NCBI GenBank assembly: GCA_001004885.1
Contig: LCRX01000007.1
Coordinates: 1-39,361 of the forward strand
DNA from: Candidatus Magasanikbacteria bacterium GW2011_GWA2_56_11
Lineage (GTDB): Bacteria > Patescibacteriota > Patescibacteriia > Magasanikbacterales > UBA922
Direction: 5' to 3'
Length of the DNA stretch: 39,361 nucleotides
The notes beneath the pieces are model-generated. The model was not told the origin of the DNA. It did no database searches and was given only the letters and a program-made list of their open reading frames with translations. The position numbers were made by a program, and so were the translations under genes. The first letter of the stretch is position 1. Each line of letters starts with the position of its first letter. Below are positions 7,096 to 20,365 of this stretch, piece after piece.

Positions 7096-7941
7096 ATGGC
7101 ACCCGATAATACACCGAGTCCGCAAATCAATCAGGCCGGCCGGAACAACTACTGGAACACGTTTTCTGCTGTCAAAGACAGAGGGGAGCTGTGGTATCAT
7201 CTGGCCGGCGCCGACAAAGCGGCGGACAGCCCGGGCGGTACCGTGGCGCCGGCCGATCTCCTGTATTACGTTTACCGTTTCAGCTACGAGCGCAATGTTT
7301 TGCGTTCCGCCGTTGAGACTTACTGCCCCCGGCGCGACCGGGCTCTGGATTGCGGCACCGGCACGGGCAGAAACGCCGTCCTCTTGGCCGAATATTTTGA
7401 ACGCGTAAGCGCTTTCGACATCTCGCGGCTGTTTATAGGCGAGAACAGGATCCGGTTTGCGCGGATTCGTAATTTGGATTTTTTCATCTCCGATTTTTCC
7501 GGTTTGAAAACCACTCCGGGCGCCTACGACCTGATCTTCGTCGGCGGCGTATGCATGTACCTGAGCGAGGCGGAGATGAGAGAGGCGCTGCGGCTGGCGG
7601 CGTCGGCCTTGCGGCCCGACGGCGTGCTCGTGCTCCGCGATTCGGTTACCCCGGCGGTTACGCGCGAACATGAAGGAAAAAAAATCTACCGCAGCGAAGC
7701 GGACTACGAGCGCATCATTACCGGCGAGGGGTTCGCTATCCGCGCCAAGGCCAACGGCGCTAAGCGTAATCTGTGGTGCAGCTTGTTCCGCCGCCTGCCG
7801 GCCTGGAGCCAAGAGCGCCGGGCAGTCTGGAGAGTGTTTTCCTTTTTAACCCGGCTCACGAGCGGCGGCGTAAATTGGGCCCAACCGTTCAGGCGCCACC
7901 CGCTGGCCAATCAGTTATTTTACGTGTGTCAACCGCTATGA
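7096..7941 (+). CDS. Class I SAM-dependent methyltransferase
   Basis: ALDCGTGTGRNAVLLAEYF, YDLIFVGGVCMYLSEAEM. Confidence 0.8.
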   Translation: MAPDNTPSPQINQAGRNNYWNTFSAVKDRGELWYHLAGADKAADSPGGTVAPADLLYYVYRFSYERNVLRSAVETYCPRRDRALDCGTGTGRNAVLLAEYFERVSAFDISRLFIGENRIRFARIRNLDFFISDFSGLKTTPGAYDLIFVGGVCMYLSEAEMREALRLAASALRPDGVLVLRDSVTPAVTREHEGKKIYRSEADYERIITGEGFAIRAKANGAKRNLWCSLFRRLPAWSQERRAVWRVFSFLTRLTSGGVNWAQPFRRHPLANQLFYVCQPL

Positions 7942-8639
7942 AATTAACTTACGCCGATTATATCCAGTGGGCCCAAAAAAATACTCCCCAGCGGTACTTT
8001 GACTGGCTGTACCGGAAGGTATCCCATCCCGTGAGTTTTATTTTTCTGCGCGCCGGAGTGTCGCCGACCACCATTACGGTAGCCTCCATAATCTTGGCCG
8101 TGGCGGCGGGCGCCGTACTGGGAGCCGGCTACCCGGTAGCGGGTTTTTTGGTATTCGGCGTGTCGTACCTGCTTGACTTTTGCGACGGCAACGTCGCCCG
8201 GGTGGTGACGCGCGTGCAGGGCATGTCCGAAAGAGAGAAAGAACGCGGTTTCATACTGGAGGGCTTCAATACCAATACCGCCTTGTTTTCCCTCTACCTG
8301 GGGTTGGGTTTTTATCTCAGCACCGTTCAGTCCAACGGGATTTTCCTGCTTATCGGTTTTTTGGTTTTTGGCGCCAAGCTTATTGCCCGCTACACTGTGG
8401 CCCAAGCGTACGCCCCGGCCAAGACCGGCCCCGGCGCCGCCCTTCGGTTTTCCGGGTTGGGACAGGTTAAATTTTTTCTCTCCAAGTGTTTGTTTTCGGC
8501 TAATTTTTACTACGTAGTTTACCTGGTTGTATTCAGCGGATTCCCGGCCCAGGCCGCGCCGGTCTTTGTCGGCTATGCGGTCTTTGACGCGGTCTTTGTC
8601 ACCCTGCGCCTGGGCCGCTATCTGCTCCGTTTGGGATAA
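7938..8639 (+). CDS. CDP-alcohol phosphatidyltransferase-like membrane protein
   Basis: Multiple hydrophobic helices; YLLDFCDGNVARVV first half of the CDP-AP motif; second half altered. Confidence 0.72.
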   Translation: MKLTYADYIQWAQKNTPQRYFDWLYRKVSHPVSFIFLRAGVSPTTITVASIILAVAAGAVLGAGYPVAGFLVFGVSYLLDFCDGNVARVVTRVQGMSEREKERGFILEGFNTNTALFSLYLGLGFYLSTVQSNGIFLLIGFLVFGAKLIARYTVAQAYAPAKTGPGAALRFSGLGQVKFFLSKCLFSANFYYVVYLVVFSGFPAQAAPVFVGYAVFDAVFVTLRLGRYLLRLG

Positions 8640-8643
8640 ATCT

Positions 8644-10029
8644 ATGCCTGCACGACAGACAATATTTATCACGGTTAACCGAGCAATTATTGCCCGGAAT
8701 TTGCTTTTCCAGAGCGCCTTTAAAAAAATGCAGGAGCGTTTTCGGATAGTTTGTTTTATTCCGCCCGAGGCCGAAGCGGAGTTCCGCCGCGTTTTTCCGA
8801 ATATGGAGGTGGCGATCCTGAACCAGATGATTTTACGGGGATGGAAACAGCGCCTGGACGTCTGGCTGACTGCCCTGCTGAAAGGTCTGATGTACAATCC
8901 GACGATCGAGCTGCGTTCGAAATACGGCCTGATGCGCCGCAGCCGGGTGCGGTTTAAAGGCCTCAGAAATTTTTTTCAGAAATATGTTTTTGGAAATTTC
9001 CTCTCCCGGTTCGGGGCAGTGAAGGCGTTGCTTCTTTACTGGGACCGGAAAATTTTTTCCACCGCCGAGTATGACGGCTGCATTACCGCCTATGCCCCGA
9101 GCCTCGTATTTGTTACCAACATCGCCGATTTGGCCGAGGTGATGCTGCTGCGCAATTGTAAAAATCGGGGAGTGGCGAGCGTCGGAATGGCCAAGAGCTG
9201 GGACGTGCCGTCAAAATTCGTCTTTCGCGAGACGACCGACAGATTTCTGGTCTGGAGCGAGTACATGGAGCGGGAAGTCACGACTTACCAGCAGTACCCG
9301 CCCGGCCGGATTACCGTTTGCGGCGTGCCGCAGTTCGATTATTACCGCCAGGCCGACATGCCGCGCGAGGTTTTTTGCGCCAAGTACGGGCTGGATCCGG
9401 GAAAGAAAATTATTTTTTTCGGCTCCGAAGGTCCGGTCGCCCCTGTCGATCCCTTTGTCGTTTGCCGCTTGCGCGACTCCATCGCCGCGGGCGAGCTCGC
9501 GGGGCACCAGGTTTTTATCCGTCCCCACTTCGGTTACCGCCAGGACAGCGAACGCTTTCAAGACCTCGTCGACGGCCGGGTCGTGTTCATGGATACTGAC
9601 CACGCTGCCTCGTCGTTCAAAGACGGCATGCCGCTGTCGCTCGACCATGTGATAAACCTGTCGGCCGCTATCCGGCAGGCGGCGGTTTGCATCACCAGCG
9701 CTTCGACGCTCGCCCTGGATATCGTGGCCAACGGCCAGTACCCGATTTTGTACGCCTTCGACGAACGCCCCGGGGTGCCCTTTGCCGATTCCATGCGGCG
9801 TTTGTACGGCAGCACTTGGTTTAGGGAATTTGAGCGCCAGGGGCTGCAGAGCCTGGTGTACTCCTACGCGGAACTTTTGCGTTTAATCCGTTTGCTTGAA
9901 ACCGATCCCGGTTACAGGCAACGCGAGCGCGAGGCAGTCATCAAGTATTTTTGTTACGCGCTCGACGGCGGCAGCGCGGGCCGGCTGGTAGAGGCCCTGG
10001 AGTCGGCCGCCGCCGGGCGCAACCACTAA
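8644..10029 (+). CDS. GT-B-like glycosyl/polyol-phosphate transferase (paralogue of 18986-20365)
   Basis: Shared motifs with 18986 ORF: KSWD...FR, QQ(F/Y)PPxRIxVxGxPQFDxYR, FFGSxG, RPHF. Confidence 0.6.
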   Translation: MPARQTIFITVNRAIIARNLLFQSAFKKMQERFRIVCFIPPEAEAEFRRVFPNMEVAILNQMILRGWKQRLDVWLTALLKGLMYNPTIELRSKYGLMRRSRVRFKGLRNFFQKYVFGNFLSRFGAVKALLLYWDRKIFSTAEYDGCITAYAPSLVFVTNIADLAEVMLLRNCKNRGVASVGMAKSWDVPSKFVFRETTDRFLVWSEYMEREVTTYQQYPPGRITVCGVPQFDYYRQADMPREVFCAKYGLDPGKKIIFFGSEGPVAPVDPFVVCRLRDSIAAGELAGHQVFIRPHFGYRQDSERFQDLVDGRVVFMDTDHAASSFKDGMPLSLDHVINLSAAIRQAAVCITSASTLALDIVANGQYPILYAFDERPGVPFADSMRRLYGSTWFREFERQGLQSLVYSYAELLRLIRLLETDPGYRQREREAVIKYFCYALDGGSAGRLVEALESAAAGRNH

Positions 10030-14017: not shown

Positions 14018-15253
14018 ATGGTTACCGTTTACACCACTGGAGTTTTCGACCTGCTGCACTCGGGGCATGTTGACACCTTGCGCCGGGCCCGGGCCATGGG
14101 CGATAAGCTGGTGGTCGGCATTCAGTCCGATGAGTCGGTGGCCAGACAGAAAGGAAAACGTCCGGTCATGTCCGCGGCCGAGCGGATGGACTTGTTGGGC
14201 TCGTTGCCGTTTGTGGACCGCTGCCTGAGCTACGACGACATTGACCAGCGGCCTTTGCTGCGGTCGCTCCAGCCGGGGGTGATGGTGCAGACCGAGGAAT
14301 GGATTCAGCAGACCGACCGCTCGAAAATCATTGATTTTCTCAAAGAGAACAATATCCGCCTGGTTTTGTTGCCGATAAACAAGACGATCTCCTCGTCCGA
14401 GATCAAAAGGCGGGTGCTCGAAAACGAGACTTTTGCCCGCCACGATATCAGCCTGCTGCGCGACAGCCTGGCGGTATTGCCTCTGAATTCGCTGCTCCAG
14501 TACGAAAAATCCGACCCGTCCAAAGTGGCGGATCTGTGCGCGCGCATGACCCGGTCGGGTACTTTTTTCAACCCGATTTCGGTCGGAGTGAGGGGCGAAA
14601 GCCGGGTGGTGATAGACGGGGCCAACCGGTTCGCGGCGCTCTCTAGCCTCGGCGCCACCCGGGCCTTTGTCCACCTTATACCTTACGACGACCAGGCCAG
14701 CGTCAACCTCAAAAACAACGCGCATTTTTTGCCGGTCGAGCCGGAGCGCTTTCAAGAGCTGGCCGCGGCCGCGGGTTTGCGGCTGGCGCCGATCGGCGAG
14801 GCCGAAGCCTTGTCCCAGCTGGCCGCCCGGAAAATTCCGGCCTTGTGCATCATGAATCAGCGGTGTTGGACAGTGGCCGCTCCGGAATCGGAGGACCATG
14901 TCGGCGTCCTCAACCGGTTGGTGGGCAGCTATATCGGCCAAATAAAGATTTATCGTTTGAGCGAGTTTAGCCGCGACGATTCGGCGCAGCCGGTAAAAAT
15001 AGTTTTTCGATCCTTTACCATCGACGAGGTGGAAGCCCTGGCGCGCCGGCGGCAGACGCTCGAGAGCGGTATTACCTGGCATTCGGTCCTCTCGTCCATG
15101 ATCCGTTTTTACATGCCGCTCGCCGTGCTTACCGAGGCTTATACCGATAAGCAGGCCGAGGAGTGGCTGGCCGCGGAGATGGCGCGGAAAATCGAGCAAA
15201 ATCGCATCAGATTTTATCCCTCGAACGTCTATATTTTTGACGAGTGGGAGTAA
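14018..15253 (+). CDS. Fusion: glycerol-3-phosphate-type cytidylyltransferase + ParB/sulfiredoxin-like (SerK/SbnI-type kinase-like) domain
   Basis: N-term GVFDLLHSGHVDTL (HxGH), KTISSSEIKRRV; C-term LPLNSLLQYEKSDPSKVADLCARM...VVIDGANRFAALSSLGA ParB/Srx-like with DGxxR motif. Confidence 0.75.
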   Translation: MVTVYTTGVFDLLHSGHVDTLRRARAMGDKLVVGIQSDESVARQKGKRPVMSAAERMDLLGSLPFVDRCLSYDDIDQRPLLRSLQPGVMVQTEEWIQQTDRSKIIDFLKENNIRLVLLPINKTISSSEIKRRVLENETFARHDISLLRDSLAVLPLNSLLQYEKSDPSKVADLCARMTRSGTFFNPISVGVRGESRVVIDGANRFAALSSLGATRAFVHLIPYDDQASVNLKNNAHFLPVEPERFQELAAAAGLRLAPIGEAEALSQLAARKIPALCIMNQRCWTVAAPESEDHVGVLNRLVGSYIGQIKIYRLSEFSRDDSAQPVKIVFRSFTIDEVEALARRRQTLESGITWHSVLSSMIRFYMPLAVLTEAYTDKQAEEWLAAEMARKIEQNRIRFYPSNVYIFDEWE

Positions 15254-15257
15254 GGAA

Positions 15258-16112
15258 ATGAACAGCCAATACCGTATGCAGAATTTTTTTCTGAACAAAT
15301 GGTCGGCCATAAGAAATTCGTCCGCCGGCCTCCCGGAGGACGAAAAGAGCCTGTATGTACCCCCGGGGGCCAAACCGCTTACGCAGCGGCAGCTTAATTT
15401 GTATTATTATTTTATTTTTATTAAGGAAATAGCGCGGAAGCACCAGGTTAAAAAAAGTCTGGAAATCGGCTGCGGCCGGGGAACGATGTCGCTGTTCTTG
15501 GCCACGTACCTCGGGACGCAGACGACACTTCTCGACCAGGAGCCCGACGCTATCGCCCTGGCCAGGCAGGAATTTGTCCGCCACGGCGCGGCAGCCGAGT
15601 ATCATGTGGCCGACGCGCTTGATACCGGCCTCCCGGCGGAGTCGTTTGACGCGGTCGTATCTATCGGCCTGGCCGAGCATATAGATAACGTGGAGAAGCT
15701 GTTGGCCGAAGAATACCGGCTTTTGAAACCGGGCGGGGTGATGATCTCGCTGAATATTCCGCGTAAATTTTCCGTTCAGTACCTCAACCGCGGCTACCGT
15801 TTCCTCAAGAAAGCGCTCGGCAAATACACCGACAAGGTCAACCGCGACTATTACCGCAACGCGCTTCAGGCGGCGGACTACGCCCGGATCGCCCGGCAGG
15901 TCGGCTTCGAGCGCGTCGAGATAACCCCTACGGCGCCTTATCCTATTTATACGCCCATGAGCCCCAAGAACGACCGCCGGATTGCGGCTCTGCGACGCGG
16001 CTTGTTAGCCGTCCGGAAACGGTTTTACTGTTTTCCGTACCGCGCCACCCGTCTGTTTGGCCAGGCCCATTTCTGCGTCGGAGTCAAAGGCCCAGGGCCA
16101 GAGCTACGTTGA
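15258..16112 (+). CDS. Class I SAM-dependent methyltransferase
   Basis: SLEIGCGRGTMSLFLATYL, FDAVVSIGLAEHIDNVEKLLAEEYRLLKPGG. Confidence 0.85.
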   Translation: MNSQYRMQNFFLNKWSAIRNSSAGLPEDEKSLYVPPGAKPLTQRQLNLYYYFIFIKEIARKHQVKKSLEIGCGRGTMSLFLATYLGTQTTLLDQEPDAIALARQEFVRHGAAAEYHVADALDTGLPAESFDAVVSIGLAEHIDNVEKLLAEEYRLLKPGGVMISLNIPRKFSVQYLNRGYRFLKKALGKYTDKVNRDYYRNALQAADYARIARQVGFERVEITPTAPYPIYTPMSPKNDRRIAALRRGLLAVRKRFYCFPYRATRLFGQAHFCVGVKGPGPELR

Positions 16113-18985: not shown

Positions 18986-20365
18986 ATGAAAAAAATTTTT
19001 ATTGTCGTTCCCGAGGCGCTTCTGATCCGCAACATTCTCCGCTCCGGCGTGTTGGATTCGCTCAAAAAGAAAGGGCGCCAGGTTGTGGTGTTCATCCTGT
19101 GCGACGCCATCCCGGATTATATCCGCGCCGAGTTTGCCGACGCCAACGTGGAGCTGGTGGCGGTTCCGGACGCGGCGGTCCCGATGGGTCCGGTCCACCG
19201 GCGGTTTATCCTCTTCACCCACTTTTTGAATCTTAACGACACCACCCGGGTATACTTCAACTACAGCCGGCACTACATCAACCGCGCCCGCTGGGCGCGG
19301 GCCATGTATCTCGCTTTCCTCAATATCTGCGGCCGGCTGCCCGGCTTGAAACCGCTGGTGCGGTGGGTGGAACAAGTTTTTTTTACCGAGAAAAATAAAA
19401 CCATTGCCGGCTATTTCGAAGCTTACCGGCCGGACCTGGTATTCTCCACGTCCATCACCGCCAAGCTGGACAACGTGTTCTTGAAAGAGGCCAGGCGGCG
19501 GGGGGTGCCGACCATCTCCATGACCAAAAGCTGGGATAACGCCACCAAGATGTACTTTCGCTGCGTGCCGGACCACTTTATCGTCCAGGACGAGATCATC
19601 CGCTCCGAACTGGCGCGGCTGCAGCAATTTCCGCCAGAGAGGATTTACGTGGTCGGTTTTCCCCAGTTCGACTGGTACCGGCGCCCAGGGGTGATCAAGC
19701 CGCGCGAAGAGCATTTGCGCGGCAAAGGCCTGGATCCGGACCGGGCGGTGATATTTTTCGGGTCCCAGGGAATTTGGTTCAAACAGGATTACCAGGTGGC
19801 CGAACAAATTTACCAGTGGATTAAACGCGACGAGCTGGCCAAGCCGTGTCAGCTTATCGTCCGGCCCCATTTTTCTAACGTAAAAAATACGCCGCTCCAG
19901 AAGTTAAAGGGCCTGGAGCATGTCAGCTACGACGACAGTTACCACATCTCGGACGTTTTCGTGGACAACTGGGATCCGACCGCGGCCGAAAATACCGATT
20001 TCGCCAATACCCTGCGGCACAGCGACGTGGTCGTCAACATCCTGTCCACCATCGCGCTCGATGCCGCCTGTTTCGACCGGCCCACCATCAACGCTTTGTA
20101 CGGCGGAGTGTACCAAAACGGCCGGGACGTAACGCACAAAATGGCCGAGGTGGTCCATTACCAGTGGGTATTCGCCACCGGGGCGACGCTGGTGGCCCGG
20201 TCGGCCGAAGAACTGCGGGAGGCGATCAACCAGTGCTTGCTCGACCCCCAAAGCAAACAGGCAGAGCGGAAGTTGCTTATCGACCGCCTGTGTTATAAAG
20301 TAGACGGCAAGTCGGCCGAGAGGATAGTGGAAGTAATCGAGACGGTCCTCGGGCAAAAGACCTGA
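18986..20365 (+). CDS. GT-B-like transferase (paralogue of 8644-10029)
   Basis: SMTKSWDNATKMYFR, QQFPPERIYVVGFPQFDWYR, VIFFGSQG, LIVRPHFS. Confidence 0.6.
   Translation: MKKIFIVVPEALLIRNILRSGVLDSLKKKGRQVVVFILCDAIPDYIRAEFADANVELVAVPDAAVPMGPVHRRFILFTHFLNLNDTTRVYFNYSRHYINRARWARAMYLAFLNICGRLPGLKPLVRWVEQVFFTEKNKTIAGYFEAYRPDLVFSTSITAKLDNVFLKEARRRGVPTISMTKSWDNATKMYFRCVPDHFIVQDEIIRSELARLQQFPPERIYVVGFPQFDWYRRPGVIKPREEHLRGKGLDPDRAVIFFGSQGIWFKQDYQVAEQIYQWIKRDELAKPCQLIVRPHFSNVKNTPLQKLKGLEHVSYDDSYHISDVFVDNWDPTAAENTDFANTLRHSDVVVNILSTIALDAACFDRPTINALYGGVYQNGRDVTHKMAEVVHYQWVFATGATLVARSAEELREAINQCLLDPQSKQAERKLLIDRLCYKVDGKSAERIVEVIETVLGQKT

Follow-up and report, generated by a model that had tools for sequence, protein, structure and literature searches.

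A putative two-step fusion protein, SbnI/SerK-like kinase domain and nucleotidyltransferase, in the sugar-coat gene cluster of a Magasanikbacteria genome

What does a protein that joins a nucleotidyltransferase domain to a domain of the ParB/Srx fold do in a bacterium with a tiny genome, where its gene is part of a sugar-coat cluster? The gene is found in Candidatus Magasanikbacteria bacterium GW2011_GWA2_56_11, in a stretch of 39,361 nucleotides (the window) which is an entire contig (C7) of a genome of 1.25 Mb that is 99% complete (Table 1). A sequence-only reading of this DNA had proposed that a cytidylyltransferase-type domain and a ParB/Srx-fold, kinase-like domain form a one-protein route from an alcohol to a CDP-alcohol. 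The open reading frame and the motifs it quoted are present exactly: GVFDLLHSGH and KTISSSEIKRR (ISSS at residue 124) in the N-domain, and YEKSD (E163) and VVIDGANR (D200, R204) in the C-domain. Pfam, NCBIfam and Foldseek agree with the domain assignment. We put at roughly 60% the probability that this single protein acts twice in succession, phosphorylating a small acceptor X and then making CDP-X, ahead of transfer to a surface glycan.

Table 1. Position and annotation of the fusion gene, its domains and key codons, and neighbouring genes in the window
Feature	Position	Strand	Details
Fusion gene, CTP_transf_like nucleotidyltransferase + SbnI/SerK-like kinase domain	14018..15253	+	411 aa
N-domain, residues 1-135	14018..14422	+	Pfam PF01467 1.5e-17; HSGH 14-17; second motif KTISSSEIKRR
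C-domain, residues 140-411	14435..15250	+	SbnI/SerK fold; NCBIfam NF033589 1.1e-12; Foldseek; pLDDT
E163 codon	14504..14506	+	Equivalent of SbnI E20 / SerK E30 (pairwise alignment)
DGANR, residues 200-204	14615..14629	+	D200 equivalent to SbnI D58 / SerK D69 (pairwise alignment)
N234 codon	14717..14719	+	Trp column of unfused relatives, SerK (W102) and SbnI
W354 codon	15077..15079	+	Arg column of unfused relatives, SerK and SbnI
SAM-dependent methyltransferase	15258..16112	+	Pfam Methyltransf_11 2.4e-21; starts 4 bases past the fusion stop codon
TagF-like protein, candidate CDP-X:glycan phosphotransferase	18986..20365	+	Pfam Glyphos_transf 1.8e-9, 37.5 bits (cut-off 22.1)
Second TagF-like protein	8644..10029	+	Pfam Glyphos_transf 17.5 bits, under cut-off; 32% identical to the 18986 protein
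CDP-alcohol phosphotransferase-like membrane protein, weaker candidate partner	7938..8639	+	PF01066 24.9 bits (cut-off 22)

The reading frame contains no frameshift or stop and, judged by its sequence relatives, is neither a chance ORF nor an assembly artefact, since fusions 44-45% identical to it across the aligned full length occur in the Steroidobacteraceae. A scan of the genome_contigs collection with a two-sequence C-domain alignment gave 61 loci with an SbnI/SerK-like domain, two of which are in-frame fusions, one in a Steroidobacteraceae MAG (L106) and one in Peristeroidobacter soli JW-3 (L114); the scan reaches only genomes matching two short patterns, and further fusions may escape it. 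A third fusion (G921) is 87% identical to that of P. soli. The search for the same fusion elsewhere, as the sequence-only reading had advised, led to three Steroidobacteraceae genomes, in which the gene lies beside a TagF-like glycerophosphotransferase homologue. The fusion is thus known in two phyla, its Steroidobacteraceae hosts being unrelated soil bacteria.

Full-length matches were found in only two of 248 sampled genomes from the order of the Steroidobacteraceae, and a search of the window's own family, covering 45 further genomes, gave none. Strong C-domain matches in 389 genomes of the phylum and 292 of the class (overlapping samples) were all unfused, and there was no match when the proteins of genome_contigs were scanned with the window protein at full length. 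In phage and plasmid collections, tblastn gave only N-domain matches or Staphylococcus C-domain matches. The fusions form one group in the C-domain tree (68 rows, support 100/100) and in the N-domain tree (44 rows, support 92/83, which is moderate only). Because both domain trees group them, a single fusion event probably took place, followed by joint inheritance or transfer as a unit.

The C-domain resembles two kinases, SbnI and SerK. It matches the NCBIfam model for SbnI at 1.1e-12 over residues 147-407 and that for SerK at 1.4e-4, at 47.9 and 21.1 bits respectively, which miss the equivalog scores of 350 and 380, and its PDB sequence matches include both proteins. An AlphaFold model of the window protein, built from 28 input sequences, has a mean pLDDT of 81; as far as residue 390 most C-domain blocks exceed 80, with dips at about 311-320 and at the C-terminus, and much of the N-domain is modelled at weaker pLDDT. 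When this model was compared with the PDB using Foldseek, ranks 1-9 were all SbnI and SerK entries (E 1.2e-16 to 2.7e-13; best values 1.2e-16 for SbnI and 3e-14 for SerK), above any ParB. The two-lobe fold with a ParB/Srx-type N-lobe is confirmed (TM to target 0.74-0.83), and the suggested structural comparison with SerK and SbnI put neither a ParB nor a non-kinase fold first, either of which would have counted against a kinase.

A DNA-binding ParB is ruled out by sequence and structure. The window protein has no match to Pfam ParB_N or NCBIfam parB_part up to an E-value of 1, the P. soli fusion scores 13.8 bits for ParB_N (cut-off 26.3), and ParB structures cover only about 75 residues of the window protein.

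In pairwise phmmer alignments E163 falls on SbnI E20 and SerK E30, and D200 on SbnI D58 and SerK D69 (the SbnI and SerK numbers being counted from printed alignment coordinates), residues which we take to be catalytic. PDB entries of SerK with E30A and E30Q agree with a catalytic role for E30. The Glu of YEKSD and the Asp of DGANR, which had been picked out beforehand, therefore do stand at the SerK/SbnI positions. In a column census of three fusions, from two lineages, and 65 unfused relatives, E163 is kept in the three fusions and in 64 of the 65 relatives (one gap), D200 and R204 are invariant in all 68 sequences, and the other kept columns include D166, P186, the rest of DGANR, H236 and G351, among others. 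The Steroidobacteraceae C-domain is without some 75 residues of the second lobe (window residues 238-312), and the model of it is a poorer fit to SbnI (TM to target 0.56-0.60).

Residues 5-132 of the N-domain match Pfam CTP_transf_like at 64.5 bits (cut-off 21). Among NCBIfam models, RfaE domain II (5e-28), a heptose adenylyltransferase, outscores glycerol-3-phosphate cytidylyltransferase (GCT; 6e-17), both matches being under their equivalog cut-offs. PDB sequence matches include human ECT, HldC and GCT, and the Foldseek matches, ranked after the SbnI/SerK entries, are GCT (1coz, 4.9e-7), HldC, 3glv and the cytidylyltransferase (CyTase) domain of Fom1 (2.1e-6). The family motif RTxGISTT is absent from the window N-domain, which has a degenerate NKTISSS in its place, and alignment with the Steroidobacteraceae fusions shows TEEW instead of GDDW. 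The Steroidobacteraceae fusions have RTQGISTT. The N-domain of the P. soli protein aligns with Bacillus subtilis GCT across GDDW and RTxGISTT; its best sequence match is the Fom1 CyTase (1.6e-21), to which its model is also close (36% identity, rmsd 1.8, TM 0.85 to target). Since Fom1, whose CyTase structure has been solved with the product HEP-CMP, has YTPGISST and so also goes without the Arg, the Arg missing from the window motif is not required in the wider family. On whether the window protein uses CTP or ATP, its sequence points both ways: the heptose adenylyltransferase model outscores GCT, and the relatives carry Fom1/GCT motifs. We take CTP as the probable nucleotide. Two further loci from the searches (L135 and L144) are read, from an EDKVGLKRNS stretch, as putative Fom1-like PEP mutase fusions.

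The fusions differ from every unfused relative in several columns of the C-domain. Column 234 is Trp in 65/65 unfused relatives and Asn in the three fusions, column 354 is Arg in 62/65 (two gaps, one X) and Trp or Phe in the fusions, column 360 is Arg in 62 and Ser in the fusions, and column 219 is Gln in all 65 and His or Val in the fusions. The Trp (SerK W102) and the first Arg (SerK R224, a number counted from the alignment) also occur in SbnI and SerK in the printed profile alignments; both are absent from all three aligned fusions. If, as we infer, this Trp and Arg contact the acceptor, the acceptor pocket has probably been remodelled. With only two fusion lineages, the replacements are best read as changes on a single branch that both lineages share. 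The likely X is a serine-related small amino or hydroxy compound, and given the changed pocket it need not be serine.

A TagF-like gene adjoins the fusion in one lineage and lies in the same cluster in the other. The Steroidobacteraceae order is fusion, methyltransferase, Glyphos_transf protein (25.2 bits, cut-off 22.1), YidC-like protein and sulfatase/LtaS-like membrane protein; the profile tests were made on the P. soli locus, and the MAG locus shows the same order by eye. For G921 the TagF-like and membrane genes were called; in place of the methyltransferase an opposite-strand ORF was listed. The two membrane proteins follow the TagF-like gene at L114, L106 and L163, which suggests an envelope polymer pathway. 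A methyltransferase, not necessarily an orthologous one, follows the fusion in both lineages, and the adjacency may be chance because the cluster holds several methyltransferases. Between the two lineages the TagF-like proteins are not closely related. Of the transferases put forward earlier, the TagF-like protein fits better as a partner than the 7938 protein, in which DFCDGNVAR is present but the remainder of the family motif (G...D...D, last two Asp) was not found, and which is without a counterpart in the Steroidobacteraceae operons.

In another genome of the window's family (G001) a standalone nucleotidyltransferase, which matches residues 3-91 at 44% identity, adjoins a Glyphos_transf protein (40.1 bits); here (L166, 7226-9410) its neighbour on the other side is a short protein whose pyruvate-kinase and HpcH/HpaI matches are weak. 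At L049 (2859-4565) a SerK-like gene directly adjoins a PALP-family (cysteine-synthase-like) gene, as expected for a serine to phosphoserine to cysteine route. Three loci from the window's class (L047, L048 and L050, in G596, G660 and G647 respectively) have unfused SerK-like genes beside several proteins of about 470-525 aa which look paralogous. At L050 two of these have a PEP-utilizers mobile domain, with PPDK_N and a weak M29-like protein nearby.

The pathway that best explains the domains and their context runs as follows. The SbnI/SerK-type domain would phosphorylate X at its hydroxyl, with a nucleotide as donor and with E163 and D200 as the catalytic pair by analogy with SbnI and SerK, and the N-domain would convert X-phosphate and CTP to CDP-X and pyrophosphate. 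The TagF-like transferase (18986, possibly also 8644) would then put phospho-X on the surface glycan, and the neighbouring methyltransferase may methylate X. In its favour are the SbnI/SerK fold with its Glu and Asp, the recurrence and joint grouping of the fusions, the Fom1- and GCT-like N-domain of the P. soli protein, the Steroidobacteraceae operon, the G001 gene pair and the parallel in Clostridioides difficile described below. Against this pathway stand the degenerate NKTISSS motif, the higher score of RfaE than of GCT, the changed pocket, the residues missing in the Steroidobacteraceae, and the distance between the TagF-like proteins of the two lineages. The proposed course from alcohol to CDP-alcohol thus holds as the best explanation, with serine an unsafe guess for the alcohol and the second N-domain motif degenerate. 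More tentatively, the fusions could be a distinct branch of ParB/Srx-fold kinases in which a non-serine acceptor is handed directly to the fused cytidylyltransferase, yielding a CDP-activated compound for a novel phosphodiester-linked surface decoration.

In its most specific form the two-step pathway would use L-serine, passing through O-phospho-L-serine to CDP-L-serine, and the glycan would be decorated with phosphoserine. Free serine is the substrate of both relatives that have been characterised, and some unfused relatives in the window's class adjoin cysteine-synthase-like or serine-pathway-like genes. However, serine is uncertain as acceptor because the pocket columns, including 219 and 360 as well as the Trp and Arg, differ from every unfused relative in both fusion lineages, and we regard it as possible and rather doubtful. 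SerK itself does not accept threonine or homoserine (PMC5120207). The same pocket changes, together with the absent part of the second lobe in the Steroidobacteraceae, would also suit a C-domain that is a kinase no longer and, as a nucleotide-binding regulator, senses CTP or the product and controls the nucleotidyltransferase. ParB-fold domains, which often occur in fusions with enzymes, are binders of CTP, ATP or GTP, and one archaeal SerK-like protein binds CTP (PMC12704722). We nevertheless find a purely regulatory role unlikely, with the Glu, Asp and DGANR invariant in the fusions and the complete two-lobe kinase fold kept by the window protein.

Doubts about the other half of the protein concern its nucleotide and its integrity. 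The N-domain might use ATP as HldE and HldC do, for an ADP-linked product, given the top NCBIfam rank of RfaE domain II and the heptose-type genes in the window (GmhA-like and HddA-like). Set against this, the RfaE score is far under the equivalog cut-off (97.7 vs 181.5), the Steroidobacteraceae N-domain is nearest to the Fom1 CyTase and has GCT motifs, and HldE-type domains group apart in the N-domain tree, so that an ATP-using enzyme seems distinctly unlikely. It is very unlikely, in our view, that the window's nucleotidyltransferase half has decayed and left the kinase half to work alone: both altered motifs would fit such a loss, but HSGH, the fold, an intact reading frame and 48% N-domain identity to the Steroidobacteraceae fusions are all kept.

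If the two-step pathway is correct, a single protein would lead from a small molecule without phosphate to the CDP-activated compound, using a fold familiar chiefly from chromosome partitioning. It would also predict a glycan decoration in bacteria about whose surface chemistry very little is known. Since P. soli JW-3 is a named strain with the same gene, the prediction is testable outside an uncultured lineage. Among the papers that could be searched, none was found to describe a nucleotidyltransferase fused to a ParB-fold kinase, and the main text of a 2025 survey of ParB-fold fusions holds no word starting with cytidylyl- or nucleotidyl-. What is new is the way in which known kinds of enzyme are combined; the system itself is not of a new kind.

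SbnI of Staphylococcus is a free serine kinase for staphyloferrin B. It is like the window C-domain in fold, length and the E20/D58 equivalents, and is its best profile and structural match, but it has no nucleotidyltransferase, and the fusions lack both its conserved Trp and the Arg within GVTRF. SerK of Thermococcus kodakarensis, an ADP-dependent free serine kinase, shares the fold and the equivalents of E30 and D69; it is a weaker match, is unfused, and has W102 and R224 where the fusions have replacements. Fom1 offers the closest solved structure to the Steroidobacteraceae N-domain, and is likewise a cytidylyltransferase fused to an enzyme that makes the phosphorus compound of its own pathway (2-hydroxyethylphosphonate), although that partner is a PEP mutase (C-P bond) and not a ParB-fold kinase. 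TagD/GCT shares the fold and HxGH with the fusions, and GDDW and RTxGISTT with the Steroidobacteraceae proteins; in contrast, the window protein misses the equivalog cut-off, is fused and has a degenerate motif. As a pathway, the nearest parallel is cd0241-cd0244 of Clostridioides difficile, genes for the Type A flagellar glycan with its phospho-threonine decoration, where a phospho-amino-acid step, a cytidylyltransferase, a methyltransferase and a TagF-like protein also occur and the CDP-threonine step is itself a model (PMC10714395). There, however, the genes are separate, the phosphotransferase is ThrH-like and the cytidylyltransferase has a GDP-mannose pyrophosphorylase-like fold (PMC10714395). 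CDP-serine appears in the literature searched in a mention in the C. difficile paper, which cites Campylobacter work (PMC10714395), and in a paper on spiral steroids. The Caulobacter phosphoglycerate cytidylyltransferase CpgD belongs to another nucleotidyltransferase family and is without a fused kinase, but it likewise makes an unusual CDP-hydroxy-compound for envelope decoration (PMC12275187).
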